IMG/VR virus record: IMGVR_UViG_3300044984_001435
Span: 1-30,406 of that record
Source of the DNA: a virus
Strand: one strand, 5' to 3'
DNA length: 30,406 nucleotides
Made by a program: the position numbers and the translations under genes. The notes under the pieces are model-generated. The model saw only the letters and a list, made by a program, of their open reading frames with translations. It did no database searches and was not told the DNA's origin. Positions within the stretch are counted from its first letter, which is position 1. Each line of letters starts with the position of its first letter. Below, piece after piece: positions 1 to 30,406 of the stretch.

Positions 1-196
1 TCGAACCATTGGTTCCGCTTGTTCCATTCGTACCCGAGGTTCCACTTGAGCCATTCGTTCCAGAAGTTCCATTCGTGCCGGAGGTTCCGCTTGTTCCGCT
101 CGTTCCGTCGGTACCCGAGGTTCCACTTGAACCGTTGGTTCCGGACGTTCCATTCGTTCCGCTCGTGCCGTTGGTGCCGGAGGTTCCACTTGTTCC
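1..196 (-). repeat. Gly-X-Y collagen-like repeat (9-base units), left copy
   Basis: About 21 consecutive 9-base units encode Gly-Thr-Ser, Gly-Thr-Asn and Gly-Ser-Ser triplets, with one Gly-Thr-Asp. The units share the wording of the large array at the right end of the window but use somewhat different synonymous codons. The array is cut by the window edge, so its length is unknown. Confidence 0.9.
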
Positions 197-370
197 GGAA
201 TATGTAATAGCATACGACGCGGTTTCTGCGTATGAAGATGATATGGCAAAACTCGCGGTTAATTGTGCGGTTCCTATAACAACCAAATTACCGGACACGT
301 TCAAATCTCCGGATATATTTCCGTCGCCTTCTACTATCAGGCCATTTCTGACGATTAGTTCGTTACTCAT
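1..370 (-). CDS. Collagen-like tail fibre/structural protein, N-terminal part (runs off left edge)
   Basis: The reading frame opens at the ATG at 370 and stays open to base 1, giving 123 codons of an incomplete gene. Residues 1-58 are not repetitive. They start [17 protein letters not shown] and include short beta-type segments and an Ala/Ser/Tyr stretch ([10 protein letters not shown]-like) common in phage fibre proteins. From residue 59 the sequence becomes strict Gly-X-Y, with X = Thr or Ser and Y = Ser, Asn or once Asp. The gene lies 114 bases downstream of the gp15-like gene on the same strand, a normal place for a tail or neck appendage gene. No clear Shine-Dalgarno sequence is seen; an AT element lies 17 bases before the ATG. 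It could be the 5' end of the same gene as the one ending at 27336 or a separate paralogue. The fibre role is inferred from composition and context. Confidence 0.75.
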
Positions 371-2245: not shown

Positions 2246-2719
2246 TTAGTCGTTCCTCTCAATTATGTTTAGAGAGGTATACTTGGTATAGTGAGTGTTG
2301 CACACGATAGAGTGACTCTTATCAGCTTGTCCACCCAGAAGTTGTTCTTGTACAACATTATCTATTTCGTAATATCTATCATTCCAGAATATCATATCTC
2401 CAATTTCCGGATAAAATTCCAATTGGCGGAGCATTTTCTCTCGCAATTTAAATATATGATTCTGTGAACGACTTGGTCCGAAATCGTCATATTCGGCTTC
2501 CATGTCTGCACGTTCTATCAATGAAGAAACTTGAACCGACGGCATATACCATTTGCCGGTGGCCTGAGAAGTTTCTCCATATATGTTCGTGGCAGTCTCG
2601 TTTGGGGAGATTTTAAATATCTGGACCAAGTTTTCGATAATATCCCCCATTAGCTCGGCATTGAATTGCCCAACCAAATTTAAATCTCGTTGCGAAAAGT
2701 AACGTCCTCTTAATCCCAT
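2246..2719 (-). CDS. gp14: gp14-like neck (head completion) protein
   Basis: A 157-residue protein placed directly before the gp15-like pair. Its C-terminal third (about 110-138) contains LEFYPEIGDMIFWNDRYYEI followed by VVQEQLLGGQ. This parallels the T4 gp14 segment with GDLIYFPMDNSLFEI and a following Tyr/Gln/Leu-Gly-Gln stretch, as I remember that protein. gp14 joins gp13 in the neck that seals the filled head and receives the tail. The protein is shorter than T4 gp14 (about 256 residues). Its start overlaps the nuclease gene by 10 bases, implying translational coupling. The identification is moderate and depends on motif and gene order. Confidence 0.55.
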   Translation of the reverse strand: MGLRGRYFSQRDLNLVGQFNAELMGDIIENLVQIFKISPNETATNIYGETSQATGKWYMPSVQVSSLIERADMEAEYDDFGPSRSQNHIFKLREKMLRQLEFYPEIGDMIFWNDRYYEIDNVVQEQLLGGQADKSHSIVCNTHYTKYTSLNIIERND

Positions 2720-3117
2720 ATTAGTTTCCTCATTTGGTCGGTTGTTATTGGAGATTCTTCTCTAATTCTTATTATTTTTATGCCACTCTGCTTGGCCATA
2801 TTAGTTTTCAATTTATCCACTTTCATACTTTCTCGTTGGAATGGATATTTACAATCTTCCTCATTTAACGGATGCCAAAATGTTCCATCAAATTCAAACA
2901 AAATATTTTGGTCCGGAAGAAATGCGTCATAATATCTTCCTCCCATTGGATATTGCGTAATAAAACATACACCCAATTCGTTCAACATGTCGTAATATTT
3001 ACGTTCAAGTGAAGTAAATTTATCTCTCGGATTGAGAGTCTTTTTTATGCCAACGAATCCTAGTAGCTTGATTTCGTTCTTCGTCAGCACTTGGTTTAAT
3101 AATGAAAATGGTCTCAT
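2710..3117 (-). CDS. Vsr/DUF559-like PD-(D/E)XK endonuclease, likely free-standing homing or mobile nuclease
   Basis: A 135-residue protein with the core of the restriction-endonuclease fold as found in Vsr-like and DUF559-like proteins. Glu38 lies in a helix (SLERKYYDML), followed by Asp64 (RYYDAFLP), then Glu75-Phe-Asp77-Gly (ILFEFDGTFWHP) with a His after the acidic pair. A late segment, SGIKIIRIREESP, matches the usual strand carrying a conserved Arg-Glu. It overlaps the upstream gp13-like gene by an ATGA and the downstream gp14-like gene by 10 bases. T4 has no nuclease gene between 13 and 14, so this looks like an insertion. Homing endonucleases of phages often lie between structural genes; calling it one is inference. 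The catalytic residues appear intact. Confidence 0.65.
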   Translation of the reverse strand: MRPFSLLNQVLTKNEIKLLGFVGIKKTLNPRDKFTSLERKYYDMLNELGVCFITQYPMGGRYYDAFLPDQNILFEFDGTFWHPLNEEDCKYPFQRESMKVDKLKTNMAKQSGIKIIRIREESPITTDQMRKLIWD

Positions 3118-8098: not shown

Positions 8099-8134
8099 AA
8101 TGTTTGTTCCTATAATTAGGTGTTGATTTTTGGT

Positions 8135-9619
8135 TTACTTACGAATACCGGCTAGCTTTTGGAAGCGGTTTGCCATAATGGCTCCTTCTGTCAAAACTGC
8201 TGGGTTTGTCGGTTTGGTTGATGCAACTGGCTTGCTAGCGAGTCCTTCGGTGATGGTTTTGACGGTTTGTGACATGACCTTCTTAGGGGCTGGTGCCACA
8301 ACTGTCTTTTTTCCACCGAAATTAGATGATTCGGCTAACGTAGCGTATACGAGCTTGGCTTCACGAACCGACTTCGTGAGGTCAAATGACTCTATTACTC
8401 TTAGTTTTTGCTCATTGTTTAGGCTGTGTTGCTTGAACAATTTGTTCGTGTAGAGCAGCTTGGCATTGAGCAGTGTAACTTCATTGATACGGTCCCGTAG
8501 ATAAACAACTGCGCTACGGTATTCTGCTAGTTCCTTTTTCAACGAAATGTTTTCTTTGACGGTTTTTTTGTCGTCCTTGTCGTCCTTGTCGTCCTCGTCG
8601 TCCTCGTCGCCCTCGTCGCCCTCCGGTTTCTTGATATTCTTCAAGAATTGTGGTGGGACTTCTCCTTCTCCTTCGGTGACTTGTTCGGCTTCGTCGTCAC
8701 ACGCAAGAATCTCTTCCAACGAGATTTCTTCATCGAGTTCATTGACTGGGTCGGCGCAATTGACTTCATTTGTGGAATCTTCCAATTCCTTGAGAATTTC
8801 ATCCAGTGAAGCTTCATCGACTACGTCATTCTCCTTGAGAGCGGACGTACCTGAATCGGTTTTCTTAAGACCATCGGAAACTTCGTTGGAAGCGCCCTGT
8901 GGGTCTTCTGTGCCGGAAGCTTTGATGTTCTTGATTTGATTTCCTGTCGCGGTCTTCTTATAGTCAGTAGACGCTGTATTTTCTTTCTTTCCGGGCGGGA
9001 GTGAGCCCTTTGTGGACATAGATGTTGCTTTTACAACCATCTTCTTGCCGGGGTCTGCTGTTTTGTGTCCGGCGGTTGTTTTCTTATAATCTGCGTCACT
9101 TTCGTTCATATGGTTTAGGTCTGATTGTTGTGGGTCTTCTCCGAAAATTTCTTCCATTCTTTCGTCTTCTTGTCCCGACATTGGTGTCGGATCGAGTGCT
9201 GGTGCGCTTGGTGCGCGTGTTGCTGGCTGTCCTGCTGCACCAATTGGCGCAATCGGGTGCTCGGCATCTGCGTCTGGTCCGACTGGGGCATCACCGCCGA
9301 ATGGGGCTCCATCGACGGGTTCTGGTACTTGTCCCATTGCGCCCGGTTGGTCGAGAGGTCCGCCCAATTGTCCGGCTTCATCTCCATCTGGTTCACCGGG
9401 AACCTGTTGTGCCGGAGCTTGTCCGACTTCTTCGCCGGTGTTGCCGTCAGTATTATCTTGTGCGCCGTCGGCGGCATTCAATTCATTGCGGAGTTTTTCC
9501 GATAACATGCTCTGTAGCATTGGGGCGAATTGTTCTTCGAGCGCAAATTTTGCGTTAGATAGTGCAGTGGCGCGGACTGCTTTTGCGTCTGCTATTGCTT
9601 GTTTGAGTAAATCTGACAT
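8135..9619 (-). CDS. gp22: gp22-like prohead core scaffold protein
   Basis: 494 residues from the ATG at 9619, preceded by AAGGA at about -11. An upstream TTG (9664) is rejected. It begins MSDLLKQAIADAKAVRATAL, an Ala-rich helical start I associate with gp22-type scaffolds of marine T4-like phages. The middle (about 55-200) is Pro/Gly/Ala/Asp-rich and disordered, and there is a strongly acidic run near 335 (GDEDDEDDKDDKDDKK). A coiled-coil segment follows (SLKKELAEYRSAVVYLRDRI), and the end is MANRFQKLAGIRK. The gene lies directly upstream of gp23, as in T4. It is much longer than T4 gp22 (269 residues). The scaffold role is supported by position, composition and the N-terminus. Confidence 0.7.
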   Translation of the reverse strand: MSDLLKQAIADAKAVRATALSNAKFALEEQFAPMLQSMLSEKLRNELNAADGAQDNTDGNTGEEVGQAPAQQVPGEPDGDEAGQLGGPLDQPGAMGQVPEPVDGAPFGGDAPVGPDADAEHPIAPIGAAGQPATRAPSAPALDPTPMSGQEDERMEEIFGEDPQQSDLNHMNESDADYKKTTAGHKTADPGKKMVVKATSMSTKGSLPPGKKENTASTDYKKTATGNQIKNIKASGTEDPQGASNEVSDGLKKTDSGTSALKENDVVDEASLDEILKELEDSTNEVNCADPVNELDEEISLEEILACDDEAEQVTEGEGEVPPQFLKNIKKPEGDEGDEDDEDDKDDKDDKKTVKENISLKKELAEYRSAVVYLRDRINEVTLLNAKLLYTNKLFKQHSLNNEQKLRVIESFDLTKSVREAKLVYATLAESSNFGGKKTVVAPAPKKVMSQTVKTITEGLASKPVASTKPTNPAVLTEGAIMANRFQKLAGIRK

Positions 9620-16588: not shown

Positions 16589-18241
16589 TTACAATAGCCA
16601 TTTTAAATCTATTGGAGACCGCCCGCCACCCGGTCCTCCAATTTTCATTTGCCATGGGTCATTATATACTCCATATGGATTTGTTCCACCCGACCTCAAT
16701 AATGGCCCACTTGAGTTTTTTGTTTGGTCGTTTGACGTTGACCCTATCTTTGATATAACAGCGCGAGTAACAGCGTCGGTTTCTTTGCGCAATCTCAGCG
16801 CAACGTCTCTTATCCAAAGTCCAATTGCAAGCGACATAACTAAATCGTCATTATATCCGGTCATAGCCTCCGCCTTGGCAGATGAGCCCGTGACTTTCCA
16901 TATAAATACGTTCAATTCCTCTATTAGCCGCTTGCTATGTAGAATTGGTTCTTTATTTCTTATATAGCTCTCAAGCTTTGATATTAATAATGGTCTAGAC
17001 TTATTGGACGTGGTAAATCCCGGAGTCATCTTTCTTTCCTCGGAATTTATTTTGTTTGTCATTTGAGCCTCGACGTCAACATATTGCAAATCTGTTGAAC
17101 TATAAAATAAGTTGGGATAATTATTATCTATAATCTCTTGAATTACCGCCCAACCAACATTGGCATTTTCTACTACAACAAGTGCTGTGTTATATTCGGT
17201 ACCAATCGTCATCAGCAATCTTGCATATTCCTTCGTAGGAAGTTTTCCTTTATATTCTGCAACTTGTTCCATGGTTTCTATGTCAAGTACTTGACATGCC
17301 GAGAAATCCGCAGCATCTCCTCGCGCAACGTCCGCAGATATCATATAACTTTTACCGGGCTGGGGATACTCAAATATCCAATATCCTTTATCAAACATTC
17401 TCTTTTCGTGTGGCTCCCGCGATTGAGTTTTTTCGTACCATTGTAATGTTGGGATATCTACCACGGTGTTACCCGAAGTAGAAAATTCACAATCACATTC
17501 CTGTGCAGCGCCTTTTTCTCCCGATAGTTTAGTTTGCTCATCTCGCCATTTTTGGTCTCTTTCTGGGTGTAAGTGCCACGGCAAACTTATACGATTCATA
17601 TCGTTCAAACCTTGCTCGGATTGTACCCATAACTTATGAAAGAAATTTCCCACGCCATTCGGAGTAGATAGAATAATAGCCTTACCACCAGTCGATAGGG
17701 TGTACTGCGCGGACAGCCAGATTTCTTCTATCCCTTCAATGAATGCAGCTTCGTCGACGATTAACAAAGACAGCGCGGACGAACGACCGGATGTACCGGC
17801 ACTCGATGCGGCTTTTATTTGTGACCCATTCTTTAATTTCAGAGACAGTCTGTTATCTTCCGTCGCGGGAATTTTTAGCCAACTTGGTAAATTATCATTC
17901 GCGAATCTAACCTTGGTAACAATCGCTTTCGAAGTCTCCTGTGTAATACTGAGACATAATATTTCCTTGTCCGAATGAAATGTCATCAACCATAGAGCGT
18001 ACCCGGATACGAGAGTAGTAATTCCCATCTGTCGGGATTTTAGAATTATATTTTGATTATGTTTGACGAAATCTTCCAACGCCAAATCTTGGAATGGGTA
18101 TGTTAAGAATGCCAAAGTGCCCCTCGTCGGATGCTGGATTTTCACATACTTCTTCATGAAATATATGGGGCCTTTCGCGCATTTTATGTATTCTTCGCGA
18201 ATGACATCCTTGATATTTTTAGATTTGATAGGCTCAGACAT
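16589..18241 (-). CDS. gp17: Terminase large subunit gp17 (packaging ATPase and nuclease)
   Basis: A 550-residue protein. The N-terminal ATPase has a Walker A-type loop KSRQMGITT (68-76), Walker B LLIVDEAAF (159-167) and the coupling motif STPNG (192-196). The C-terminal RNase H-like nuclease has Asp304 in SADVARGDAADFSA, Glu358 in VVVENANVGW and Asp465/Asp466 in GYNDDLVMSLAIGLW. These are the motifs of the T4 gp17 family, which drives DNA into the prohead and cuts headful lengths. It is slightly shorter than T4 gp17 (610). Its start overlaps the preceding 127-residue gene by 8 bases. A Gly/Pro-rich tail ends the protein. Confidence 0.96.
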   Translation of the reverse strand: MSEPIKSKNIKDVIREEYIKCAKGPIYFMKKYVKIQHPTRGTLAFLTYPFQDLALEDFVKHNQNIILKSRQMGITTLVSGYALWLMTFHSDKEILCLSITQETSKAIVTKVRFANDNLPSWLKIPATEDNRLSLKLKNGSQIKAASSAGTSGRSSALSLLIVDEAAFIEGIEEIWLSAQYTLSTGGKAIILSTPNGVGNFFHKLWVQSEQGLNDMNRISLPWHLHPERDQKWRDEQTKLSGEKGAAQECDCEFSTSGNTVVDIPTLQWYEKTQSREPHEKRMFDKGYWIFEYPQPGKSYMISADVARGDAADFSACQVLDIETMEQVAEYKGKLPTKEYARLLMTIGTEYNTALVVVENANVGWAVIQEIIDNNYPNLFYSSTDLQYVDVEAQMTNKINSEERKMTPGFTTSNKSRPLLISKLESYIRNKEPILHSKRLIEELNVFIWKVTGSSAKAEAMTGYNDDLVMSLAIGLWIRDVALRLRKETDAVTRAVISKIGSTSNDQTKNSSGPLLRSGGTNPYGVYNDPWQMKIGGPGGGRSPIDLKWLL

Positions 18242-19287: not shown

Positions 19288-19422
19288 TTATTGCCCACGG
19301 CCCCAACCACTCACACCCGTGTAATAAATTATATTGTTGGTAGAAGTTAATTTAAGACTATCGAACAACTTCTCGGCGACTGATACGTAATTCTCATCGC
19401 TGTGGGTTACGTACAAGTTCAT
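19288..19422 (-). pseudogene. 44-codon ORF, possible truncated remnant
   Basis: The ATG overlaps the kinase stop as ATGA (19419-19422), so it would be translated by coupling. The peptide begins MNLYVTHSDENYVSVAEKLF and continues to NIIYYTG before ending in GWGRGQ. The start looks like the first beta-alpha-beta unit of a larger nucleotide-sugar or glycosyltransferase-type protein, and I recall phage proteins opening in this way, but nothing follows. It may be a gene cut short by deletion or a genuine small protein. The family is uncertain. Confidence 0.4.
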
Positions 19423-20150
19423 ATGACAGATACACCGCGATGCTTCACCACTTTACTTGCACACTTGTTCGCGAATTTGATTGCCGCCCGGATATCTTCA
19501 TTTTTGCTATATTCTATCACCAACCCGGCCAAGAAAGAATCCCCGGCCCCGGATACGTCAATAACGTCTCCTCGCTCGACTGGGAAATTCTCCCCGAGAT
19601 AATAACATCCGTCTGCCCCGGATGTTTGAATTATTTTACCGGCCATCTCGGAGGTTATAACACTCTTAGACCTAGCAAATTCGTGGTCATTTATTTTAAT
19701 AAATTTAACATACTTAGTCCAAGCCCCCAATACTTTTTTGGTGTCTAAAAACACGTTGGTATGATTTTTAGAAATATCCTCAATGTCCGACTCGGTCAAA
19801 AATCCCTTATCGTAATCGGATATTACAATATAATCGTATAAATAATTAATATCGCCCAAGTTAATACGTTGCATTTCTTCCGCCGAATCTAATCTAAAAA
19901 ACATATGATTAGTGGAACTGTGGACATATCGTGTTTTTGTGATATTATACCAATTAGAATTGGTCACAATGTCACAATCATCTATGGTCGTTTTGATATT
20001 TCGATGCACATTCTTTGCCATGCCGGGATTGTCGTTCTGGTCAACAATCTGTAGGATTGGTACTGGCTTGTCTGGACACATACGAGTTGATGAGCAATAA
20101 ACATGCACGTCTCGACAACTGTCACCTATCACTAAAATTCGTTTACTCAT
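19419..20150 (-). CDS. PfkB-family sugar kinase, HldE/RfaE N-domain-like (heptose phosphate kinase candidate)
   Basis: A 243-residue ribokinase-family protein. It starts with the glycine strand RILVIGDSCRDVHVY and has NPGMAKNVHRN at 41-51, the counterpart of the Gly-Gly-Ala-Ala-Asn-Val segment. It ends with the PfkB signature DVSGAGDSFLAGL at 198-210, in which Asp204 is the catalytic base. The order and the start resemble the kinase half of HldE, which phosphorylates D-glycero-D-manno-heptose 7-phosphate at C1. At 243 residues it is shorter than that domain (about 310), so some lid or loop segments are reduced. It overlaps the transketolase C gene by an ATGA. The exact substrate is inferred from the heptosyltransferase and transketolase neighbours. 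Confidence 0.7.
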   Translation of the reverse strand: MSKRILVIGDSCRDVHVYCSSTRMCPDKPVPILQIVDQNDNPGMAKNVHRNIKTTIDDCDIVTNSNWYNITKTRYVHSSTNHMFFRLDSAEEMQRINLGDINYLYDYIVISDYDKGFLTESDIEDISKNHTNVFLDTKKVLGAWTKYVKFIKINDHEFARSKSVITSEMAGKIIQTSGADGCYYLGENFPVERGDVIDVSGAGDSFLAGLVIEYSKNEDIRAAIKFANKCASKVVKHRGVSVI

Positions 20151-20629
20151 ATTAGATGCTTGCCGTCTTTTTTAAGACAAATTATTGCCGGTTTCTTCAA
20201 TAGATGCGCCTCAATCATCGCTCTCTCGGTTTCCTCCGAATTTCTCGGGAAAAAGCTGACAATATTCTTGAATAGTGCACATAATCCCGGCGCATTCAAT
20301 GGTCGGTGTGTAGGGCCATGTGTAGGATAGTCCGAGAATCCAATTAATGTCACCGGCAAACATTGCTCGTCAATGTCGATTTTAATCTGCTCAAACGGGC
20401 GTTCCAGTAGAAATGGGGTGATGGAGTATACCACGGGGCGAATGCCCTCTAAACACATCCCAGCTGCCATACTAATCATACTCTGCTCACACAGTCCAAG
20501 GTTATAAAACCTGTCCGGGAATTGTTGCTTGAATTCGTCCATTTCTTGGACCACGTCTCCGGTAAGCAAGAATAGATTTGGGTCTTTCTTTCCTAGAGTT
20601 ACTATAGTTTTACCAAATGCTTTTCTCAT
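20147..20629 (-). CDS. Transketolase, pyrimidine-binding half (C-terminal subunit)
   Basis: A 160-residue protein from the ATG at 20629, four bases after the stop of its partner. A longer frame from 20722 would overlap the partner and is rejected. It matches the central Pyr domain of transketolase: LLTGDVVQEMDEF near the start and YNLGLCEQSMISMAAGMCLE with Glu48, the residue that activates thiamine diphosphate. These are followed by RPVVYSITPFLLERPFEQIK and a HGPTHRPLNAP segment. It lacks the third, C-terminal transketolase domain, which makes it shorter than typical split subunits (about 300). With the 20634 gene it should form the two-subunit enzyme that moves two-carbon units between sugar phosphates. 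Confidence 0.85.
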   Translation of the reverse strand: MRKAFGKTIVTLGKKDPNLFLLTGDVVQEMDEFKQQFPDRFYNLGLCEQSMISMAAGMCLEGIRPVVYSITPFLLERPFEQIKIDIDEQCLPVTLIGFSDYPTHGPTHRPLNAPGLCALFKNIVSFFPRNSEETERAMIEAHLLKKPAIICLKKDGKHLI

Positions 20630-20633
20630 ATAT

Positions 20634-21359
20634 TTAGGATAATTGTTTAAGAATCTCAGCTTCTTCCGCTGCGTTCGGCCACTTGGAGTGCCATTCGGGC
20701 TTGTTCTCCATAAAATCCACACCTTTTCCTTTCACTGTATTTGCTACAACAAAACGCGGCTTATCGCTGGTGGCTAGCAGCGCCGCCAATATCTCGGACT
20801 CGGCGTGTCCATCTATTATAGAAACGTCCCACCCACAAGACTGCGCAACTGCTGCGATATTATCTACTGGTAAGATATCGCTGACATAACCGGAGCCTTG
20901 AATTTTGTTAAAATCGACTATTATTGTAAGGTTGTTCAACTTGTGAAATCCTCCCAATAACAAGCTTTCCCAAGTAGTTCCTTCTTGGCATTCTCCGTCT
21001 CCCATTAATACAAACACACGCCCATTCTTTTTCAATTTCTTTTTTGCGAATGCCATTCCCATACCGGCAGGAAATCCGTGACCCTCGCTACCAGTTGTCC
21101 AATGTATTCCATTTGGTATATCCAAGTGTGGATGTCCTTCCAGTGTAGGATTCAACCCCTTCTCTCGCAAAATTACATAAAGCCCCCAGCAAGAGTGTCC
21201 TTTGCTCAAAATGAACTTATCGTCTTTACCAAGGACTCTGTCATATAAATTTGACAAAATTTCAATTGTTGAAAATGTGCCACCGTAATGATAGCCACCA
21301 TTTGCTTTCGAGAGCTTATATAAGTCTCTACGTAACTGTTTTGAGCGTTCGTTTAACAT
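20634..21359 (-). CDS. Transketolase, thiamine diphosphate-binding half (N-terminal subunit)
   Basis: A 241-residue protein with the transketolase PP domain. It has KGHSCWGLY at 53-61, GSEGHGFPAGMGMAFA at 90-105, and the thiamine diphosphate/magnesium motif GDGECQEG at 120-127 followed by Asn151 in IIVDFNKIQGSG. Residues and spacing fit split transketolases of bacteria and archaea (N-terminal subunit about 270). Transketolase forms sedoheptulose 7-phosphate from pentose phosphates, the entry point to bacterial heptose synthesis. It is three bases after the dehydrogenase stop. A phage copy of a two-gene transketolase within a glycan operon suggests precursor supply, which is inference. Confidence 0.88.
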   Translation of the reverse strand: MLNERSKQLRRDLYKLSKANGGYHYGGTFSTIEILSNLYDRVLGKDDKFILSKGHSCWGLYVILREKGLNPTLEGHPHLDIPNGIHWTTGSEGHGFPAGMGMAFAKKKLKKNGRVFVLMGDGECQEGTTWESLLLGGFHKLNNLTIIVDFNKIQGSGYVSDILPVDNIAAVAQSCGWDVSIIDGHAESEILAALLATSDKPRFVVANTVKGKGVDFMENKPEWHSKWPNAAEEAEILKQLS

Positions 21360-21362
21360 ATT

Positions 21363-22373
21363 TTAAATATCAATCATTATTCTTCCACTTTTACCCGAGC
21401 GGAGCTGGTCAACTGCGGAGTTGATGTTTAACAGACCGTGTCTATCTGTGATTAAGTTTTGTAACTTTATTAGTTGGTTCTTGTAGAGATTTAAATATCT
21501 GGGAATATCGGAATCCGGGTCAAATCCACCAGCTTGAGTAGTACGAATGGATTGGCCTCCGGTGGAGAATAGTTTTCCCGGATTGATTACCGTGAGTTGT
21601 GAATCTGGTTTCGGTTGGGCCACTAATATGCAACGCCCCCGGTCGGAAAGCAGAGGCAAGTATCGAGAAACCAAAGCCATGTTGCCGGTGGTGTCTATGA
21701 TGCAGTCGAATGGACCCGGAAGGTCTGCATATTCATTTCCATTAAAAAAGATGCCTCCGTTTCTAGTTACTATACCTTCTTTTTCTGGTGCAATGTCCAC
21801 TCCATATATTGGATATGCCTGAGATAAACTTGCCGCATAAATACAATTTAATCCCACTCCACCACACCCCAAAACCAATACGCTCTCTCCAAATTTTATA
21901 TTTGCATCTTTGTTTACGACGGCAAATCCGGTTGATAAACCACATCCCAAGAGAGCAACAAAATCGTTGTGAGTATCGAGCGCCACTCTGGTCAATCTAT
22001 TTTCCGATACCACGCTATATTCCGACAATGTCGTAATCTTCCCACCAGACATGGACTTTCCATTCAACCTATAAACAGGAAACTTGGCTTCTATTCCACT
22101 CCCCTTTCTCCAATGCATAACTACCTTATCACCAAATTTTACTTTGGTTACTCCCGGTCCTATTGCCTCAACAATGCCACATCCCTCGTGACCGATAAGA
22201 TGTGGCATGAATTTTTCATTTCCTTTTAGTCCGGCTATCTCTTGGAGTTGTGCTCCACAAAGACCGCTAACTAACACCTTTACTATAACTTGACCGTAGT
22301 CTAGAGTGTTTGGTAGTTCGACATCTTCTATAACTAACGGTTCGTTCTTTTTATATAAAACGGCAGCTTTCAT
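21363..22373 (-). CDS. Zinc-type medium-chain dehydrogenase (alcohol/polyol dehydrogenase-like)
   Basis: A 336-residue medium-chain dehydrogenase/reductase. The catalytic zinc set is present: Cys39 (SGLCGAQL), His62-Glu63 (GHEGCGIVEAIGPGV) and Cys144 (LLGCGLSTGF). The NAD(P) fold has VLVLGCGGVGLN at 165-176. The four-Cys structural zinc loop is missing: the stretch from about 86 to 110 (HWRKGSGIEAKFPVY) has none. The family oxidises or reduces alcohols and sugar alcohols; the substrate is not predictable here, but a sugar or sugar-phosphate intermediate fits the operon. It has its own candidate promoter, 10 bases before the ATG, so it may start a second transcript with the transketolase and kinase. 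Confidence 0.87.
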   Translation of the reverse strand: MKAAVLYKKNEPLVIEDVELPNTLDYGQVIVKVLVSGLCGAQLQEIAGLKGNEKFMPHLIGHEGCGIVEAIGPGVTKVKFGDKVVMHWRKGSGIEAKFPVYRLNGKSMSGGKITTLSEYSVVSENRLTRVALDTHNDFVALLGCGLSTGFAVVNKDANIKFGESVLVLGCGGVGLNCIYAASLSQAYPIYGVDIAPEKEGIVTRNGGIFFNGNEYADLPGPFDCIIDTTGNMALVSRYLPLLSDRGRCILVAQPKPDSQLTVINPGKLFSTGGQSIRTTQAGGFDPDSDIPRYLNLYKNQLIKLQNLITDRHGLLNINSAVDQLRSGKSGRIMIDI

Positions 22374-22383
22374 GTATAGAAAT

Positions 22384-22411
22384 ATAGTAAACTTTTAAAT
22401 CTATATGTCAA
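22384..22411 (-). promoter_or_regulatory. Candidate sigma70 promoter for dehydrogenase-transketolase-kinase genes
   Basis: In the minus direction, TTGACA (22406-22411, perfect -35), a 16-base spacer, then TACTAT (22384-22389, 4 of 6 to the -10). It fills the only gap in the glycan operon. The ATG is 10 bases past the -10, so the transcript would be leaderless or nearly so. Confidence 0.5.
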
Positions 22412-22417
22412 GAAAAA

Positions 22418-25165
22418 TTACCAAATAGTTCTTCCACCATCAATTATAAGATTGTGTCCTGTTACATATGACGAGGCGTCGGATGCCAAGAATACTGCCC
22501 CACCAGCAATTTCGTCGGCGCAGCCAACACGTTTCATTGGTACCATGTCGGATAGCCCACGTACATACTGTGGATTTGCATTCGCCGCGTCTGCTGGGGG
22601 TTTAGGAAAGTGGCCCGGACTTATACAATTTACTCTTATACCTTTATCGGCATATTGAACTGCAAGTTCTTTGGTCAGTTGAATAGATGCCGCTTTTGCT
22701 GCACAATAAAACGCGGTCGAACTTGGTACAACTTGATATGCACGTTGGTCTATTCCAATCATTCCATATATGGACGCAATATTAATTATATTGCCATAAT
22801 TTTTCTTGGTCATTTTTGGTAAAACTACCTGACAGCACATGAATTGCTGAGTGAGAATGTTATCCATGCCAGTAGACCAGTCTGCATCTGTCAATTGTTC
22901 GAACGGTTTTCTTTTTTCGTTGAACGCATTATTTACTAAAATATCTACGTCGCCTATATTGTCTATGACCGATTGGAACTGACTCCTGTCTGTCACGTCG
23001 CATACGGTTGGTATAATATTATCTTTTAGAAAATTTTCCGCTGTTAATAACTTATCTTTTATTTTTGATACATCTCTACCAATAGCATACACTTTTGCAC
23101 CTTGTGCCACCAGTCCCATGCAAATAGATGCGCCCAAATGCCCACCCGCCCCAGTGACGACTGCGGTTTTACCTTTCAAATTAAACAGATTATTATAAAA
23201 AGATGGGTCGGTTATTAATTTTGTAGACTGTCTTGCTTCTGGCGAATTATCAATTTTTGGCGGAGGCGTATTTACTACCAAACTTACTTTCTTTTGTTTC
23301 TCGGCAGCAATTTCATCAGATGGCCGATTATCCATATAAATTAGAATTTCTTCGTAATATTCTAGGAAATGTTCATTGAATAAATCCCATTTTATATCTA
23401 CGCCATCTACACTACGAACTTCGTAGTTATTAATGGTAACTAGATAAGTATCTCTAAATTTACGGAATGCCTCGGTTCTGGGTTCATCTTCTAGATGCCA
23501 CTCACCAGCAACTTTCTTGACATTTTTCATAATCCAATCTCTGTTTTCAACCGTGAATATATCATATTCCCCACCCTCACAGTCAATCTTCATGAAATCT
23601 ATTTTGTCAATCTTAGCCTCCGCCATTATGTCTAATAATGGAGCCGTCGTGAAATCCTCAACCACACAGTCATACACCAATCCATCTTTTATAAATTGAG
23701 GCTCTTTTGATACGCCTTTGTTTACTACGATGACCGGCAATCCTTCTAGATTTTTCTTTAATACTTCGGACCTAATTGCACTTGGTTCGACTGCCACGAC
23801 AAGCTTTGGCTTCTTTCTAAATGCGCCACATGAAAATGCGCCAACGTGTGCGCCAATGTCCATAACAATATCTCCGTCTTGAACTTCAAACATAGATTCA
23901 TATACATTGTCCAAGAATATTTCTCTATATAACAATTCCTTTTGGCCAGTTGTCACCCGGCTTCCCCACTGGAATTTGTGTATTGTGTTTCTGTAGAATG
24001 GAGTTTGCAATTTGTCAATTTCTTTAATGACCATTTCAGAGCTGATTTGTGTGGTGCACTCGAAATTTTTCTTTCGGGGACAATACATCCAATTTCCTTT
24101 ATCGAATTTGGTAGTGTCATCGTTTGTGCATCCGTGACACACGCTTTTATTTATAACTCTGTGTGGCGTGAAAAACTCTGTAAATCTGTCACCCACTCCA
24201 CTAATCAATATTACCGGAATTCCAACTGTCCATGCAATCCATGATAGACCAGAACTTAGCCCGATGAAAAAGTCAGCCCCACTCAGTTGTTCCATGCGAA
24301 CTTCGAGTGGGAAATCCCCCGTCTTATCGACCGCTCCTCTCGGCATATAGTTCATAGACTCTTTACTTCCATACGAACTGTGTCTATCTATGCACCACAC
24401 CTCATATCCAAGTTGTTTTAAGTATCTAACAACTTCGTCCCACCCCGTCTTATTGTTCCAGTACTTGAATTGCGCGGTAGATTGCATTCCAATACATACA
24501 TATTTTTTATCGCCATGCTTCTTTGACCTATCAAATGCAAACGTCGGTTTGAAATCTACCATTCCAAATCCTAGTATATCGCTTGCAATATTTGCCAAAC
24601 ACATATGTTGAGGGTTACGTCTTGCACGACCTTGCCAATTCGAAAACCAACCTATCTTGTATGCCGCATAATAGTCTTCATCCCGCTCATTTACACCGGA
24701 AAAAGATATATTTTTATAATTTTCTATAAATATGTTACGCATCACTTCGCTAAAAACGACGCAATGTAATTGACATTTATGTTTAAATTGGAATTCGTTT
24801 ACTGCTCCAATATAAGCAATCAAATCCCCAATTGATTGTGTATCTAACACTACTTTTACCGGTTTATTTTCTAATGTTAATTTTTCTTCTTTTACCACCG
24901 TAGAACCGAGTTTCACGACAACTTTCCAATTTACAAAATATTTCGTGTTATCTGCACACCACATATTATTTTTTATAGTGGTAGAATAGGTGATAGAGTT
25001 CTTATCCAAGTCTATAAAATCGACTGTATATTCTTCCGGAATATCCCCGGTTATATTGACTTTTGGGCCATCTACGAAGCTGATTCGTATATTATTGTGT
25101 ATGTCTCCCACGTCTGTAGGACTAAGCATTGCATTTTTATAACTGTCAATTAGCTCGTACTTCAT
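22418..25165 (-). CDS. Three-domain fusion: autotransporter-type O-heptosyltransferase, FkbM methyltransferase and SDR oxidoreductase
   Basis: A 915-residue protein. Residues 1 to about 390 resemble the TibC/BAH-type autotransporter heptosyltransferases of the GT9 fold. The metal-finger cysteines lie at 343, 346, 362 and 370 (SVCHGCTND, then WMYCPRKKNFECTTQIS), and the donor-site region includes GADFFIGLSSGLSWIAW at 296-312. Residues about 400-615 are an FkbM-type methyltransferase: MDIGAHVGAFS at 435-445 binds SAM and FMKIDCEGGEYDIF lies at 524-537. Residues about 655-915 are a short-chain dehydrogenase with TGAGGHLG at 671-678, NNA at 745-747, Ser798, and Tyr820/Lys824. Linkers between domains are short and Pro-rich (VVNTPPPKIDNSP). 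TibC-type enzymes put heptose on Ser of repeat proteins. The ATG overlaps the GT4 stop. The domain calls are from remembered motifs. Confidence 0.8.
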   Translation of the reverse strand: MKYELIDSYKNAMLSPTDVGDIHNNIRISFVDGPKVNITGDIPEEYTVDFIDLDKNSITYSTTIKNNMWCADNTKYFVNWKVVVKLGSTVVKEEKLTLENKPVKVVLDTQSIGDLIAYIGAVNEFQFKHKCQLHCVVFSEVMRNIFIENYKNISFSGVNERDEDYYAAYKIGWFSNWQGRARRNPQHMCLANIASDILGFGMVDFKPTFAFDRSKKHGDKKYVCIGMQSTAQFKYWNNKTGWDEVVRYLKQLGYEVWCIDRHSSYGSKESMNYMPRGAVDKTGDFPLEVRMEQLSGADFFIGLSSGLSWIAWTVGIPVILISGVGDRFTEFFTPHRVINKSVCHGCTNDDTTKFDKGNWMYCPRKKNFECTTQISSEMVIKEIDKLQTPFYRNTIHKFQWGSRVTTGQKELLYREIFLDNVYESMFEVQDGDIVMDIGAHVGAFSCGAFRKKPKLVVAVEPSAIRSEVLKKNLEGLPVIVVNKGVSKEPQFIKDGLVYDCVVEDFTTAPLLDIMAEAKIDKIDFMKIDCEGGEYDIFTVENRDWIMKNVKKVAGEWHLEDEPRTEAFRKFRDTYLVTINNYEVRSVDGVDIKWDLFNEHFLEYYEEILIYMDNRPSDEIAAEKQKKVSLVVNTPPPKIDNSPEARQSTKLITDPSFYNNLFNLKGKTAVVTGAGGHLGASICMGLVAQGAKVYAIGRDVSKIKDKLLTAENFLKDNIIPTVCDVTDRSQFQSVIDNIGDVDILVNNAFNEKRKPFEQLTDADWSTGMDNILTQQFMCCQVVLPKMTKKNYGNIINIASIYGMIGIDQRAYQVVPSSTAFYCAAKAASIQLTKELAVQYADKGIRVNCISPGHFPKPPADAANANPQYVRGLSDMVPMKRVGCADEIAGGAVFLASDASSYVTGHNLIIDGGRTIW

Positions 25166-27282
25166 AGATATAATTCACTTTTAATTAGATTGATATTAGT
25201 TGTAAAATCTCCCGGTGTCAAGTACTTTACATTACTATATTTCGCATACATGTTTTTATATGCTGGTAAATTGTGTATAAGACAAGGCAATTTCCACGAA
25301 ATTGCTTCGCGTATAACTAGAGGGGAGGTCTCCATTTTAGATGGAAATATCATTAAATCTGCCGCTTGGCAAAACGTATCCACGTCTTTTCTTTCTCCCC
25401 AAATAACACAATTATTAGGAAGGGCTTCCATAATAGGTTTCCAATACTGCTCGAAATTTGACGCTTGATTTCCTATAAAGTGGAATTTGACCTTCTTACC
25501 AGTCAGAGCCCGAGCAAGTTCTATTGTCTCAGCTTGATTTTTCCATGGAGCAAACAGACCTACTTGTATGATATGTTTATATTCCGGGTCAAGTCCTAGA
25601 GATTTCTTTGAATTTACCTTGTCTGGCTCAGATATATCTATAGGATATTCTACGATACTGTACGGCACTCCGAATTGCTTATAAATATCGGCCTGATATT
25701 CAGACACAAACAAAAACTTATCTGGGAAAAATACCTTTTCTTCGGGTTTAAAATAAATCCCGTGATAGCTCTCAAATAATAGATAATTTCTATCCTTTCT
25801 ATAAATAGTCTTTGCTATGTCCGAACGAACGAAGGATTCCGGGAATTCTTCTAAATGAATCACGTCCGGAGAAATATTTTTTATTATTTCCAGCAAATCC
25901 TCTTTGGGTCTATCCCCAATACTAGTAAACCTGTCACCCAAAAGACCTATGATTGCATCGCGCTGTACTACATACTCCGACGCAATGAAGTTATATTCGA
26001 CACAGTACACCTCAAATTCGTCGTTAAGTAATTGTATTTTTTTGAGCAAGTACTGTGGAGCCCCGCCCGTAGATAAATGTTGGGCTATATATAAAATCTT
26101 TAGTTTTTTCTTGGCCGCATTTATTTTTCTGCTGGAATTGAAATTTTTAAGTTTGGTGGCTCCAATTTCCCCCACTGCTTCCCAGCTATATTCTCGCCGA
26201 ATATCGGGAGAATATAACATGGCCCGAGTTTTATGCGAATCGTAATTTTTATATGCATCGCGCATCACTTCACCCAGATGTGAAAAATCCGGCTCATAAA
26301 AATCCCCGGAACACACCGGAGAAATCTTCTCTCCCATAATTCTTACTGGCAATCCTCGATTTTTTGTAAATTCCAGCTGGCCACTGCAATTAGAATATAT
26401 CACAGGAGTTCCACATGCCATCGCCTCTATCAATGGCAAATTCCAACCTTCTCCGCGAGCACAAGAAAGAAAAACGTGCCCCTTTTTTATGAATTTTATA
26501 TAGTCTTCGCGGGATGTAAAATGTAATATTTTTATACGCGAGTCTTCAATCCCGAAATGTGCAAGCCTTTCTTCGGTAGTTTTAAATTCATCTTGGGAGA
26601 ACCTATTGTCTACTGATATAATTAAGTCTACTGGCTCATCTCGGCCAAACGTTGCGAGAAATGTCCGAATTATTTCAGTTGTGGATTTTCTATACTCCCA
26701 GCGACCAAAAACTACAAATTTAAATCGTCCATCTTTATAATATTCATCAAACTCTATATTCTCCGGAAAAAATACTTCGGATTCAACACCCGCCGGAACA
26801 ACCTGTAGTTTTGCTTCCGACATTCCTTGTTTTACCATACATTCTTTTTGCCAATTGCTGGCTACCCAAATCTCATCATATCCTACGATACGGTCAAAGA
26901 AGTGCTGTGGAAGTCTGGTAGATTCCCATACCATATATGCAATCTTTGGTCCTTTATAGCTATCGTAGAAGTAGAACCCGTCTACAATTTCTATTACCAA
27001 ATTTACATCGAATGGTTCCGTAGGTTGTTCATATATTGAATAATCCTTACGTACACCATTATCCCACAAAGTTTGTTTGTATAGAATTTTCTTATCTGTT
27101 TCTGTTAGATATGGCTCCTTGTCGTGTGGAGTATTATTTCCTCCCCACGTCTCACCTACGGTGAAATTGCGCGCTTTTAGGTTGCAATGCTTAGATAATT
27201 CTCTTAAAAAATGTCTAAAATGATTATTTAGACCCGTTACTCCTATATAGGAAGTGTGTGCGCAAACATTTAAATTACTCAT
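25162..27282 (-). CDS. Tandem GT4 glycosyltransferase (two domains)
   Basis: A 706-residue protein with two GT-B glycosyltransferase units. The first (about 1-390) has VVFGRWEYRKSTTEIIRTF near 190-208 and the nucleotide-sugar site SCARGEGWNLPLIEAMACGT at 273-292, with both Glu of the EX7E motif. The second begins at about 393 (LKILYIAQHLSTGGAPQYLL) and has IIQVGLFAPWKNQAETIELA and a second, looser EX7E site (FPSKMETSPLVIREAISWKL). GT4 enzymes add sugars retaining anomeric configuration, often in surface-polysaccharide or protein glycosylation. The gene is first in the glycan operon, preceded by a consensus promoter and directly downstream of the fibre gene. It overlaps the next gene by four bases. 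The acceptor is not known. Confidence 0.88.
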   Translation of the reverse strand: MSNLNVCAHTSYIGVTGLNNHFRHFLRELSKHCNLKARNFTVGETWGGNNTPHDKEPYLTETDKKILYKQTLWDNGVRKDYSIYEQPTEPFDVNLVIEIVDGFYFYDSYKGPKIAYMVWESTRLPQHFFDRIVGYDEIWVASNWQKECMVKQGMSEAKLQVVPAGVESEVFFPENIEFDEYYKDGRFKFVVFGRWEYRKSTTEIIRTFLATFGRDEPVDLIISVDNRFSQDEFKTTEERLAHFGIEDSRIKILHFTSREDYIKFIKKGHVFLSCARGEGWNLPLIEAMACGTPVIYSNCSGQLEFTKNRGLPVRIMGEKISPVCSGDFYEPDFSHLGEVMRDAYKNYDSHKTRAMLYSPDIRREYSWEAVGEIGATKLKNFNSSRKINAAKKKLKILYIAQHLSTGGAPQYLLKKIQLLNDEFEVYCVEYNFIASEYVVQRDAIIGLLGDRFTSIGDRPKEDLLEIIKNISPDVIHLEEFPESFVRSDIAKTIYRKDRNYLLFESYHGIYFKPEEKVFFPDKFLFVSEYQADIYKQFGVPYSIVEYPIDISEPDKVNSKKSLGLDPEYKHIIQVGLFAPWKNQAETIELARALTGKKVKFHFIGNQASNFEQYWKPIMEALPNNCVIWGERKDVDTFCQAADLMIFPSKMETSPLVIREAISWKLPCLIHNLPAYKNMYAKYSNVKYLTPGDFTTNINLIKSELYL

Positions 27283-27290
27283 TCTCCGCC

Positions 27291-27318
27291 ATTATATAAC
27301 TATAACATAGATTGTCAA
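27291..27318 (-). promoter_or_regulatory. Consensus sigma70 promoter of the glycan operon
   Basis: In the minus direction, TTGACA (27313-27318) and TATAAT (27291-27296) are both perfect and separated by 16 bases. The ATG at 27282 is only 8 bases past the -10, with GGCGGAGA between them. It lies in the 53-base gap after the fibre stop, so the glycosyltransferase genes can be read independently by host RNA polymerase. Confidence 0.8.
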
Positions 27319-27335
27319 GCAATAATTTACTATAA

Positions 27336-30300
27336 TTATGCCCCCATCATCATAAATATTGGAGAGAAATCTGGCGTAGCCGCAGCTATTGTGCCTGTAA
27401 CAGTCAATGATCCTGTTATGATTGTATTTCCATTTACATCCAATTTTGCATTCGGTGTAATTGTACCAATACCAAGGTTAGTGCCGTCATCATACAAGAA
27501 ATTGCTTGATGATATAGTGTTTGTGCCAGAGATTTTTACCAGTCGATTTGTTCCGGAGATGGATAATGATGTACCGGACGTTCCACTCGAACCATTCGTT
27601 CCGCTCGTTCCATTTGTACCCGACGTTCCGTTGGTACCCGAAGTTCCACTCGACCCGTTAGTGCCAGAGGTTCCACTTGAACCGTTCGTGCCACTCGTTC
27701 CGCTTGAACCGTTGGTGCCAGATGTTCCGCGAGTTCCGGACGTTCCACTCGACCCGTTGGTACCGGACGTTCCACTCGAACCATTCGTTCCACTCGTTCC
27801 ATTTGTACCCGACGTTCCGTTCGTGCCACTCGTTCCACTCGAACCATTCGTTCCGCTCGTTCCATTTGTACCCGACGTTCCGTTCGTGCCACTCGTTCCA
27901 CTCGAACCATTCGTTCCGCTCGTTCCATTTGTACCCGACGTTCCGTTGGTGCCACTCGTTCCGCTTGAACCGTTCGTGCCACTCGTTCCACTTGAACCGT
28001 TCGTGCCAGAGGTTCCACTTGAACCATTGGTGCCAGATGTTCCGCGAGTTCCGGACGTTCCGCTCGAACCGTTCGTACCACTCGTTCCACTCGAACCATT
28101 CGTTCCGCTCGTTCCATTTGTACCCGACGTTCCGTTGGTGCCACTCGTTCCGCTTGAACCGTTGGTGCCACTCGTTCCGCTTGAACCGTTCGTGCCACTC
28201 GTTCCACTTGAACCGTTCGTGCCAGAGGTTCCACTTGAACCATTGGTGCCAGAGGTTCCACTTGAACCATTGGTGCCAGAGGTTCCACTTGAACCATTGG
28301 TGCCAGATGTTCCGCGAGTTCCGGACGTTCCACTCGACCCGTTGGTACCGGACGTTCCACTCGAACCATTCGTTCCGCTCGTTCCATTTGTACCCGACGT
28401 TCCGTTCGTGCCACTCGTTCCACTCGAACCATTCGTTCCGCTCGTTCCATTTGTACCCGACGTTCCGTTGGTGCCACTCGTTCCACTTGAACCGTTCGTG
28501 CCAGAGGTTCCACTTGAACCGTTCGTGCCAGAGGTTCCACTTGAACCATTGGTGCCAGATGTTCCGCGAGTTCCGGACGTTCCGCTCGAACCGTTCGTGC
28601 CACTCGTTCCACTCGAACCATTCGTTCCGCTCGTTCCATTTGTACCCGACGTTCCGTTGGTGCCACTCGTTCCGCTTGAACCGTTCGTGCCAGAGGTTCC
28701 ACTTGAACCGTTCGTGCCACTCGTTCCACTTGAACCGTTCGTGCCAGAGGTTCCACTTGAACCGTTCGTGCCAGAGGTTCCGCGAGTTCCGGACGTTCCG
28801 CTCGACCCGTTGGTTCCACTTGTACCACTCGAACCGTTTGTACCGCTCGTTCCATTTGTACCCGACGTTCCGTTGGTGCCACTCGTTCCACTCGACCCGT
28901 TGGTGCCAGAGGTTCCACTTGAACCGTTCGTGCCACTCGTTCCACTTGAACCGTTCGTGCCAGAGGTTCCACTTGAACCATTGGTGCCAGATGTTCCGCG
29001 AGTTCCGGACGTTCCGCTCGACCCGTTGGTTCCACTTGTACCGCTCGTTCCATTTGTACCCGACGTTCCGTTGGTGCCACTCGTTCCACTCGACCCGTTG
29101 GTACCGGACGTTCCACTCGAACCATTCGTTCCGCTCGTTCCATTTGTACCCGACGTTCCGTTGGTGCCACTCGTTCCACTCGACCCGTTGGTGCCAGAGG
29201 TTCCACTTGAACCGTTCGTGCCACTCGTTCCGCTTGAACCGTTGGTGCCAGAGGTTCCACTTGAACCGTTCGTGCCACTCGTTCCATTTGTACCCGAAGT
29301 TCCGTTGGTGCCACTCGTTCCGCTTGAACCGTTCGTGCCAGAGGTTCCACTTGAACCATTGGTGCCAGATGTTCCGCGAGTTCCGGACGTTCCACTCGAA
29401 CCATTGGTTCCGCTTGTTCCATTTGTACCCGACGTCCCGTTGGTGCCAGAGGTTCCACTTGAACCGTTCGTGCCACTCGTTCCACTCGACCCGTTGGTGC
29501 CAGAGGTTCCACTTGAACCGTTCGTGCCGCTCGTTCCATTTGTACCCGACGTTCCGTTGGTGCCACTCGTTCCACTCGACCCGTTGGTGCCAGAGGTTCC
29601 ACTTGAACCGTTCGTTCCGCTCGTTCCGTTGGTGCCCGAAGTTCCGCTCGAACCGTTCGTACCACTCGTTCCACTCGAACCATTCGTTCCGCTCGTTCCA
29701 TTTGTACCCGAAGTTCCGTTGGTGCCACTCGTTCCGCTTGAACCATTCGTGCCAGAGGTTCCACTTGAACCATTGGTGCCAGATGTTCCGCGAGTTCCGG
29801 ACGTTCCACTCGAACCATTCGTTCCGCTCGTTCCATTTGTACCCGACGTTCCGTTGGTGCCGGAGGTTCCACTTGAACCGTTCGTGCCACTCGTTCCACT
29901 CGACCCGTTGGTGCCAGAGGTTCCACTTGAACCGTTCGTGCCGCTCGTTCCATTTGTACCCGACGTTCCGTTGGTGCCACTCGTTCCACTCGACCCGTTG
30001 GTGCCAGAGGTTCCACTTGAACCGTTCGTGCCGGATGTTCCACTCGAACCATTCGTTCCGCTCGTTCCGTTGGTGCCCGAAGTTCCGCTCGAACCGTTCG
30101 TACCACTCGTTCCACTCGAACCATTCGTTCCGCTCGTTCCATTTGTACCCGACGTTCCGTTGGTGCCACTCGTTCCGCTTGAACCGTTCGTGCCACTCGT
30201 TCCACTTGAACCGTTCGTGCCACTCGTTCCACTTGAACCGTTCGTGCCAGAGGTTCCACTTGAACCATTGGTGCCAGATGTTCCGCGAGTTCCGGACGTT

Positions 30301-30406
30301 CCGCTCGACCCGTTGGTTCCACTTGTACCACTCGAACCGTTTGTACCGCTCGTTCCATTTGTACCCGACGTTCCGTTGGTGCCACTCGTTCCACTCGACC
30401 CGTTGG
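27336..30406 (-). CDS. Collagen-like fibre protein, C-terminal part (enters from right edge)
   Basis: The Gly-X-Y frame is open from the right edge to the TAA at 27336, giving 1022 codons of an incomplete gene. About 945 residues are uninterrupted Gly-X-Y, X nearly always Thr or Ser and Y Ser or Asn, with scattered Gly-Thr-Arg. The last 77 residues are non-repetitive and typical of phage fibre tips or linkers: SISGTNRLVKISGTNTISSS, then LGIGTITPNAKLDVNGNTII, TGSLTVTGT, and the end FSPIFMMMGA. Collagen-like repeats in phage fibres form trimeric rods. There is no Pro for conventional collagen stability, so Thr-rich rods may need glycans, as proposed for Thr-rich bacterial collagens. The glycan operon follows directly. 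Fibre identity is inferred from repeats, C-terminus and context. Confidence 0.85.
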   Translation of the reverse strand, partial: NGSSGTSGTNGTSGTNGTSGTNGSSGTSGTNGSSGTSGTRGTSGTNGSSGTSGTNGSSGTSGTNGSSGTSGTNGSSGTSGTNGTSGTNGTSGTNGSSGTSGTNGSSGTSGTNGTSGTNGSSGTSGTNGSSGTSGTNGSSGTSGTNGTSGTNGTSGTNGSSGTSGTNGSSGTSGTNGSSGTSGTNGTSGTNGTSGTNGSSGTSGTRGTSGTNGSSGTSGTNGSSGTSGTNGTSGTNGTSGTNGSSGTSGTNGSSGTSGTNGTSGTNGSSGTSGTNGSSGTSGTNGTSGTNGTSGTNGSSGTSGTNGSSGTSGTNGSSGTSGTNGTSGTNGTSGTNGSSGTSGTRGTSGTNGSSGTSGTNGSSGTSGTNGTSGTNGTSGTNGSSGTSGTNGSSGTSGTNGSSGTSGTNGSSGTSGTNGTSGTNGTSGTNGSSGTSGTNGSSGTSGTNGTSGTNGTSGTSGTNGSSGTSGTRGTSGTNGSSGTSGTNGSSGTSGTNGSSGTSGTNGSSGTSGTNGTSGTNGTSGTNGSSGTSGTNGSSGTSGTRGTSGTNGSSGTSGTNGSSGTSGTNGSSGTSGTNGSSGTSGTNGTSGTNGTSGTNGSSGTSGTNGSSGTSGTRGTSGTNGSSGTSGTNGSSGTSGTNGSSGTSGTNGTSGTNGTSGTNGSSGTSGTNGTSGTNGTSGTNGSSGTSGTNGSSGTSGTRGTSGTNGSSGTSGTNGSSGTSGTNGSSGTSGTNGSSGTSGTNGSSGTSGTNGSSGTSGTNGTSGTNGTSGTNGSSGTSGTNGSSGTSGTRGTSGTNGSSGTSGTNGSSGTSGTNGSSGTSGTNGTSGTNGTSGTNGSSGTSGTNGTSGTNGTSGTNGSSGTSGTNGTSGTNGTSGTNGSSGTSGTNGSSGTSGTRGTSGTNGSSGTSGTNGSSGTSGTNGSSGTSGTNGTSGTNGTSGTNGSSGTSGTSLSISGTNRLVKISGTNTISSSNFLYDDGTNLGIGTITPNAKLDVNGNTIITGSLTVTGTIAAATPDFSPIFMMMGA
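27567..30406 (-). repeat. Gly-X-Y collagen-like repeat array (9-base units), right copy
   Basis: About 315 consecutive 9-base units with no frame break. Most encode Gly-Thr-Ser, Gly-Thr-Asn or Gly-Ser-Ser. Nine Gly-Thr-Arg units (word CCGCGAGTTCC on the plus strand at 27727, 28042, 28312, 28564, 28780, 28996, 29374, 29788 and 30283) are spaced by multiples of 9 (315, 270, 252, 216, 216, 378, 414, 495). Blocks of several units recur, showing segmental duplication. The array keeps other reading frames open as well, creating false ORFs. Confidence 0.95.

Follow-up and report, generated by a model that had tools for sequence, protein, structure and literature searches.

Why should a phage carry, close to the gene of a collagen-like fibre, an enzyme of a family known from the heptosylation of bacterial adhesins? 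The question is raised by an IMG/VR virus record of 30,406 bases from a T4-like lake phage, analysed here over its whole length (the window). The window contains the terminase, portal, prohead protease, and major capsid protein genes of a T4-like head module and, in minus-strand order, a collagen-like fibre gene (fibre 1), a double-GT4 protein, a TibC-FkbM-SDR fusion, a Zn-dependent alcohol dehydrogenase, an N-terminal and a pyrimidine-binding transketolase gene, a PfkB/HldE-like kinase, two small genes, and the terminase; the gene positions and the strand assigned in the earlier note were all borne out. The genes from GT4 to the kinase overlap or lie at most 44 bases apart. The terminase large subunit, in the next module downstream (16589..18241, minus strand; phrog_2, 4.9e-45), is nearest to terminases of Microcystis and Flavobacterium phages (50-54%), its closest relative being that of Microcystis phage Mel-JY01 (54%), and the order Gly-X-Y fibre, GT4-TibC, terminase is found again in Mel-JY01 and in locus L004.

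The interval from the stop codon of the fibre gene to the start of the GT4 gene contains a sigma-70-like promoter (27291..27318, minus strand; TTGACA-16-TATAAT), recognised by a perfect consensus match only, which would yield an almost leaderless transcript; the gene starts of the cluster (19419-27282, minus strand) have no clear Shine-Dalgarno sequence. Within the neck/head-completion module, a small gene (2710-3117, minus strand) matches phage HNH/homing endonuclease families. In other loci (L004:11470-15390, L007:11243-13162, L028:11203-15123, and L031:11201-15103), the glycosyltransferase cluster and the terminase are separated by a large gene, absent from the window, that combines a cytidylyltransferase-like domain with an RNA-ligase-like KxDG motif.

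The identity of the enzyme is clear. Residues 1-390 of the 915-aa fusion (23996..25165, minus strand) match the TIGR04414 profile with 322 bits (E 3.6e-96), above its cut-off of 200, and the sequence of PDB entry 4rap with E 2.7e-69. The AlphaFold2 model of the domain (pLDDT 90.3), a prediction, superposes on 4rap with a TM score of 0.86 over 369 columns, including the beta-barrel and the iron-finger region, whereas on the LPS heptosyltransferases WaaC and WaaF it reaches only about 0.43-0.51. In TibC, the catalytic residue is Asp-110, the donor is contacted by Thr-226, Lys-230, Arg-286, and Trp-305, and iron is bound by Cys-339/342/358/370 (PMC4358343); all have equivalents in the phage domain (D114, T230, K234, R290, W309, and C343/346/362/370), and the stereoselectivity position is occupied by Ser, residue 304, as in AAH. 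That the domain is a TibC-type enzyme is beyond doubt, and the profile search and structure prediction suggested for these residues in the earlier note thus confirmed the heptosyltransferase with a four-Cys finger that had been recognised there. No autotransporter gene with strand-loop-strand repeats was identified in the window, where the nearby repeat protein is of the Gly-X-Y type, and for this reason the phage enzyme is regarded as a variant rather than a canonical BAHT member. Canonical members are dodecamers that use ADP-heptose to heptosylate Ser. To our knowledge, the known substrates of TibC are beta-helical autotransporters and not collagen-like proteins. The fusion continues with an FkbM-type methyltransferase domain (23201..23995; PF05050, 1.7e-7) and a short-chain dehydrogenase (SDR) domain (22418..23200; PF13561, 3.1e-45), and the preceding gene encodes a 706-aa protein in which two stretches match GT4 glycosyltransferases (25162..27282; PF00534/PF13692, phrog_2170), all on the minus strand.

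The putative acceptor, fibre 1, is represented by its 3' part (27336..30406, minus strand), the 5' end lying beyond the contig. The fragment shows the long unbroken Gly-X-Y run that is typical of collagen-like proteins, with 315 uninterrupted triplets of four kinds (GTS 123, GTN 111, GSS 72, and GTR 9) followed by a short unique C-terminus; position X is occupied by Thr or Ser throughout, and Pro does not occur. When copies of the repeat are compared, identity at codon position 3 is 0.27-0.51, while positions 1 and 2 are at 0.70-0.82, and third positions so close to random beside conserved first and second ones indicate purifying selection on the protein pattern and not a young expansion of DNA. 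The Ser/Thr-rich repeat described in the earlier note was thus found, with 510 such residues (267 Ser and 243 Thr), but the idea that hundreds of both serve as acceptors has to be narrowed, since the residue reported as modified by TibC and AAH is Ser and not Thr (PMC4358343), so that the 267 Ser of the fragment are the expected sites. A second collagen-like piece lies at the opposite end of the window, the N-terminus of another fibre ORF (2..370, minus strand; Pfam Collagen, 1.9e-9), which in a 99.99% identical sister contig belongs to a protein that spans at least 2765 aa and contains two Gly-X-Y blocks. A circular genome joined through the repeat was considered, in which the two pieces would be a single gene; this reading is not supported, as the ends share no long stretch beyond repeat sequence and the sister contig runs on into a different part of the larger fibre.

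The likely explanation of these features is that the locus encodes a protein O-glycosylation system of the phage, in which the TibC-type domain would use an ADP-activated donor to attach a heptose or related sugar to Ser residues in the Gly-[Thr/Ser]-Ser repeats of the fibre or fibres, probably while these are being synthesised during infection. This first sugar would then be extended or methylated by the GT4 and FkbM domains, and the product would be a fibre rod coated with sugar. The explanation is built on the identity, predicted fold, and conserved active site of the enzyme, together with its genomic pairing with repeats in viruses and cells (see below). A triple helix devoid of Pro is expected to be weak and could be stabilised by glycosylation; in a repeat without Pro, the glycan may thus help to hold the helix together, besides shielding the fibre. 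The dehydrogenase-transketolase-kinase cassette would be a local add-on outside the common core, which adjusts the sugar supply or changes the sugar.

This cassette, on the minus strand throughout, begins with the Zn-dependent alcohol dehydrogenase of the MDR type (21363..22373; PF08240; phrog_2640, 7.8e-75), 54% identical to SSM2_197 of cyanophage S-SM2. The split transketolase proposed in the earlier note was recovered in part: the N-terminal, thiamine-binding subunit (20634..21359; PF00456) has a split-chain transketolase, 6yak, as its best PDB match (4.3e-45), but the second gene (20147..20629, in an ORF open from 20722) carries the pyrimidine-binding domain alone (PF02779, 1.1e-19), without Transketolase_C, and probably starts at the ATG at 20629 rather than at the GTG at 20722. 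Likewise, the 243-aa kinase (19419..20150), of the PfkB type, is HldE-like, as had been stated, with HldA as its best PDB match (1.3e-7), but it scores only 98 bits against the HldE equivalog TIGR02198, for which the cut-off is 345, and belongs to phrog_8133 (1.5e-83), a family known from cyanophages, being 56% identical to the S-SM2 kinase. Among 102 TibC loci, the cassette occurs in this phage only, as does the SDR, while the kinase is also present in L078; the idea that transketolase and kinase belong to TibC systems in general was accordingly rejected. Neither a GmhA isomerase nor an HldE nucleotidyltransferase (HldE-II) was seen among the genes of the window, which is the 30 kb known of this genome. 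With the cassette confined to this phage among the 102 loci, a kinase below the HldE cut-off, and these two enzymes not seen, the proposal that a heptose donor is made or boosted by the phage is not supported as a common property of TibC systems. The donor may be supplied by the host or encoded outside the 30 kb; alternatively, the sugar may be something other than plain heptose.

The last of these options, which overlaps with the explanation given above, is a possible but not a likely alternative: the fibre would be modified, and the dehydrogenase, SDR, transketolase, and kinase would make another activated sugar for this version of TibC or for the GT4 domains. The fusion of the SDR to TibC in this phage fits such a role, as do the missing heptose genes and the weak kinase score just described, and in S-SM2 a Zn-dehydrogenase, a TPP enzyme, and an HldE-like kinase follow one another in the same order, although the TPP enzyme there is a different, E1-like one. 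Plain heptose is favoured by the donor-site residues, which are those of TibC, and by the AAH-like Ser at the stereoselectivity site; the host, or the part of the genome beyond the 30 kb, may provide the missing genes, and the HldE-II-like nucleotidyltransferase that S-SM2 carries in addition fits an NDP-heptose. The S-SM2 gene annotated as phosphoheptose isomerase was rejected as evidence of GmhA. Such cyanophage genes (L164:17975-18286 and 19616-19945, and L166:12716-13060) have the look of HAD-type phosphatases, with a VDIDxT motif, and their annotation is therefore probably wrong.

If the enzyme acts on the fibre, the two should be found together elsewhere. A profile search revealed relatives of TibC in at least 585 viral contigs, and among the 102 loci, homologues of the second GT4 domain of the window occur in 65 and homologues of the FkbM domain in 47. 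Gly-X-Y proteins were present within about 10 kb in only 21 of 82 TibC loci, and whole contigs were therefore searched with a Gly-[S/T]-[S/T] DNA pattern, which was found in 34 of 41 TibC contigs, with five or more matches in 31 of 41, a count that leaves out contig G022, where the backwards control also matched (it was nearly absent elsewhere). The same pattern occurred in one of 14 T4-like terminase relatives of at least 20 kb without TibC, four complete phage genomes included, so that 33 of 44 TibC records stand against 1 of 14 (Fisher p=9e-6, with near-duplicates among the TibC contigs and kinship ignored). In the reverse test, viral contigs of at least 20 kb were picked by their repeat only, and TibC above the cut-off was found in 18 of 50 with Gly-Thr-[S/T] and 1 of 44 with Gly-Pro (p=2e-5, kinship ignored), the latter being a noisy control, since GGNCC is palindromic and just 54 of the 79 loci concerned contained a real Gly-X-Y ORF. 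Among contigs of at least 60 kb, the figures were 13 of 18 (one just below the cut-off) and 1 of 16 (p=1e-4). All these statistics concern contigs that are fragments, some of them near-duplicates, and take no account of kinship. GT4 domains were much more weakly enriched in the same sets (19 of 50 versus 8 of 44, p=0.04), and a generic enrichment of glycosyltransferases was rejected on this basis.

The repeat-selected contigs with TibC have a nearly Pro-free Gly-X-Y gene within about 7 kb in 13 of 19 cases, the strand not always being shared; opposite strands are frequent for Gly-X-Y genes and TibC. In the clade of TibC enzymes to which that of the window belongs (L010-L031), most loci have no Gly-X-Y gene nearby, and the whole of a 91-kb TibC contig (G005) contains no Ser/Thr-rich Gly-X-Y repeat. 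Exceptions to the pairing occur in both directions: the collagen-like protein near TibC in one phage contig (L430) is Pro-rich and almost free of Ser and Thr, and two terminase relatives (L287 and L291) have the Ser/Thr-rich repeats with no TibC on the contig.

When bacterial and archaeal genomes were scanned once with the TibC profile, four matches were obtained; the scan used a single peptide pattern and is no measure of the frequency of TibC in bacteria. One is a phage-like contig, where a Gly-X-Y fibre gene ends 4 bases before the GT4-TibC gene. The other three are metagenome-assembled genomes (MAGs) of Acidiferrobacterales, of a gammaproteobacterium, and of Schekmanbacteria, with Gly-Ser/Thr-Ser repeat proteins nearby, which in the first two are small and lipoprotein-like. 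Over the whole MAGs (3.7, 3.8, and 9.2 Mb), 26 of 26, 16 of 16, and 15 of 16 exact matches to the pattern lie at 1.2, 1.2, and 5.7 kb, respectively, from the only TIGR04414 gene above the cut-off; pooled, 57 of 58 lie 1-6 kb from it, for which the rough chance is 3e-9 in three genomes that were themselves found via TibC. In the two proteobacterial MAGs (L433:6569-9098 and L434:5899-9071), a small lipoprotein-like GTSGSSG-repeat protein with an acidic tail (142 aa in L433) is divergent beside a conserved gene of 276-277 aa and a stand-alone TibC, probably forming a bacterial repeat-glycosylation pair. In the Schekmanbacteria MAG (L432:1387-2841 and 7938-9143), a Gly-Ser-Ser-rich protein lies about 5 kb from the sole TibC gene above the cut-off. 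These cellular pairs provide the strongest support, because a shared phage lineage cannot easily explain them, and the recurrence of one enzyme-repeat pairing in viruses and in three bacterial genomes makes sugar-coating of the repeats the most likely function of the enzyme. The two computable points on which the earlier note had made its proposal depend, a match of the domain to heptosyltransferases and co-occurrence with Thr/Ser-rich collagen-like proteins in related phages, thus came out in its favour, the latter also in other viruses and in cellular genomes.

Canonical enzymes have different neighbours. In 398 Pseudomonadota genomes, eight had a TIGR04414 gene above the cut-off, seven of them canonical with about 480-650 bits, and among those with a readable neighbour several (L435, L436, L438, and L439) adjoin autotransporter-like strand-loop-strand repeats. 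In a tree of 70 sequences, with a midpoint root used for drawing only, canonical enzymes form one clade (100/100) inside a wider, mostly viral diversity; the Gly-X-Y association recurs on several deep branches, and the TibC of the window falls outside the canonical clade. Since TibC here tracks Gly-Thr-[S/T] repeats while canonical TibC/AAH adjoin autotransporters, the mostly viral subfamily probably O-glycosylates Gly-[S/T]-Ser repeats.

Two further readings leave the fibre unmodified. In the first, which is unlikely, the cluster would alter the surface polysaccharide of the host during infection, for superinfection exclusion or receptor masking, and would lie near fibres only through a shared variable host-recognition region. 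Polysaccharide clusters do typically contain GT4, FkbM, and sugar genes, the dehydrogenase and kinase share 54-56% identity with cyanophage sugar-cassette genes, some TibC loci have no Gly-X-Y gene nearby, and glycosyltransferases in a pelagimyophage host-recognition cluster were read in this way (PMC7029224). The phage domain is closest, however, to protein heptosyltransferases and not to WaaC/WaaF, its enrichment with Gly-Thr-Ser repeats far exceeds that of GT4, and on cell chromosomes the same enzyme adjoins a repeat protein. More improbable still is that TibC modifies another Ser/Thr-rich virion protein, such as another fibre or a tail protein, and co-occurs with Gly-X-Y fibres because the same phages favour both. 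Loci without a nearby Gly-X-Y gene that adjoin a tail sheath (L036 and L043) or S/T/N-rich structural proteins (L060) might suggest this, but most such phages still have the Ser/Thr-rich repeats elsewhere on the contig, and in the cellular pairs there is no further virion protein on which the enzyme could act.

The association of enzyme and repeat is thus real and well supported, and points to a known enzyme family in a variant form that is carried mostly by phages and probably has a new class of acceptor. A broader proposal can be offered tentatively: a large and predominantly viral section of the TibC family may be a dedicated system for Pro-free, Ser/Thr-rich collagen-like repeats, in phages (jumbo phages and a Microcystis phage included) and a few bacteria, where glycans on Ser would replace stabilisation by Pro/Hyp, and the autotransporter TibC/AAH enzymes would be one specialised clade of a wider repeat-glycosylating family. 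Hundreds of uncultured phages thereby gain a testable enzyme-substrate pair for virion glycosylation, a way in which Pro-free collagen-like rods could be stabilised is suggested, and the bacterial pairs are small enough for quick testing without a phage.

The earlier note knew of no described phage system of this composition, and a search of one literature library for TibC or collagen-fibre glycosylation in phages likewise found no paper linking TibC to phage fibres, but glycosylation of phage virions as such is already known. Mycobacteriophages Che8 and Rita have glycosylated virions (Freeman et al., 2023, as cited in PMC11256854) and, like the present phage, carry glycosyltransferase genes; according to that citation the acceptors there are capsid proteins, whereas here a TibC-type enzyme is proposed to act on a collagen-like fibre. 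The pelagimyophage cluster shares the location of glycosyltransferase genes beside tail fibres in T4-like phages, but it is GT8-dominated and was read as modifying host LPS, and TibC is not mentioned in the available part of the source (PMC7029224). The sugar/LPS cassettes of cyanophages S-SM2, P-TIM68, and P-SSM2 have kinases 33-57% and Zn-dehydrogenases 53-54% identical to those of the window, with the order dehydrogenase, TPP enzyme, kinase shared by S-SM2 and P-TIM68; those genomes contain no TIGR04414 gene and no Ser/Thr-rich Gly-X-Y repeat, and their TPP enzyme is different, in S-SM2 being flanked by the kinase and dehydrogenase near the HldE-II-like gene. The closest system is that of the TibC/AAH BAHT enzymes (TIGR04414; PDB 4RAP and 4RB4; PMC4358343), which have in common with the phage enzyme the fold, the N-terminal beta-barrel region, the catalytic Asp, the donor contacts, the four-Cys iron finger, and a Ser-rich repetitive partner encoded nearby. 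The phage enzyme differs in its lower profile score and its place outside the canonical clade, in its fusion to FkbM and SDR domains beside GT4 domains, and in its partner, a Gly-X-Y repeat instead of an autotransporter beta-helix, thus widening a family known from the heptosylation of adhesins.
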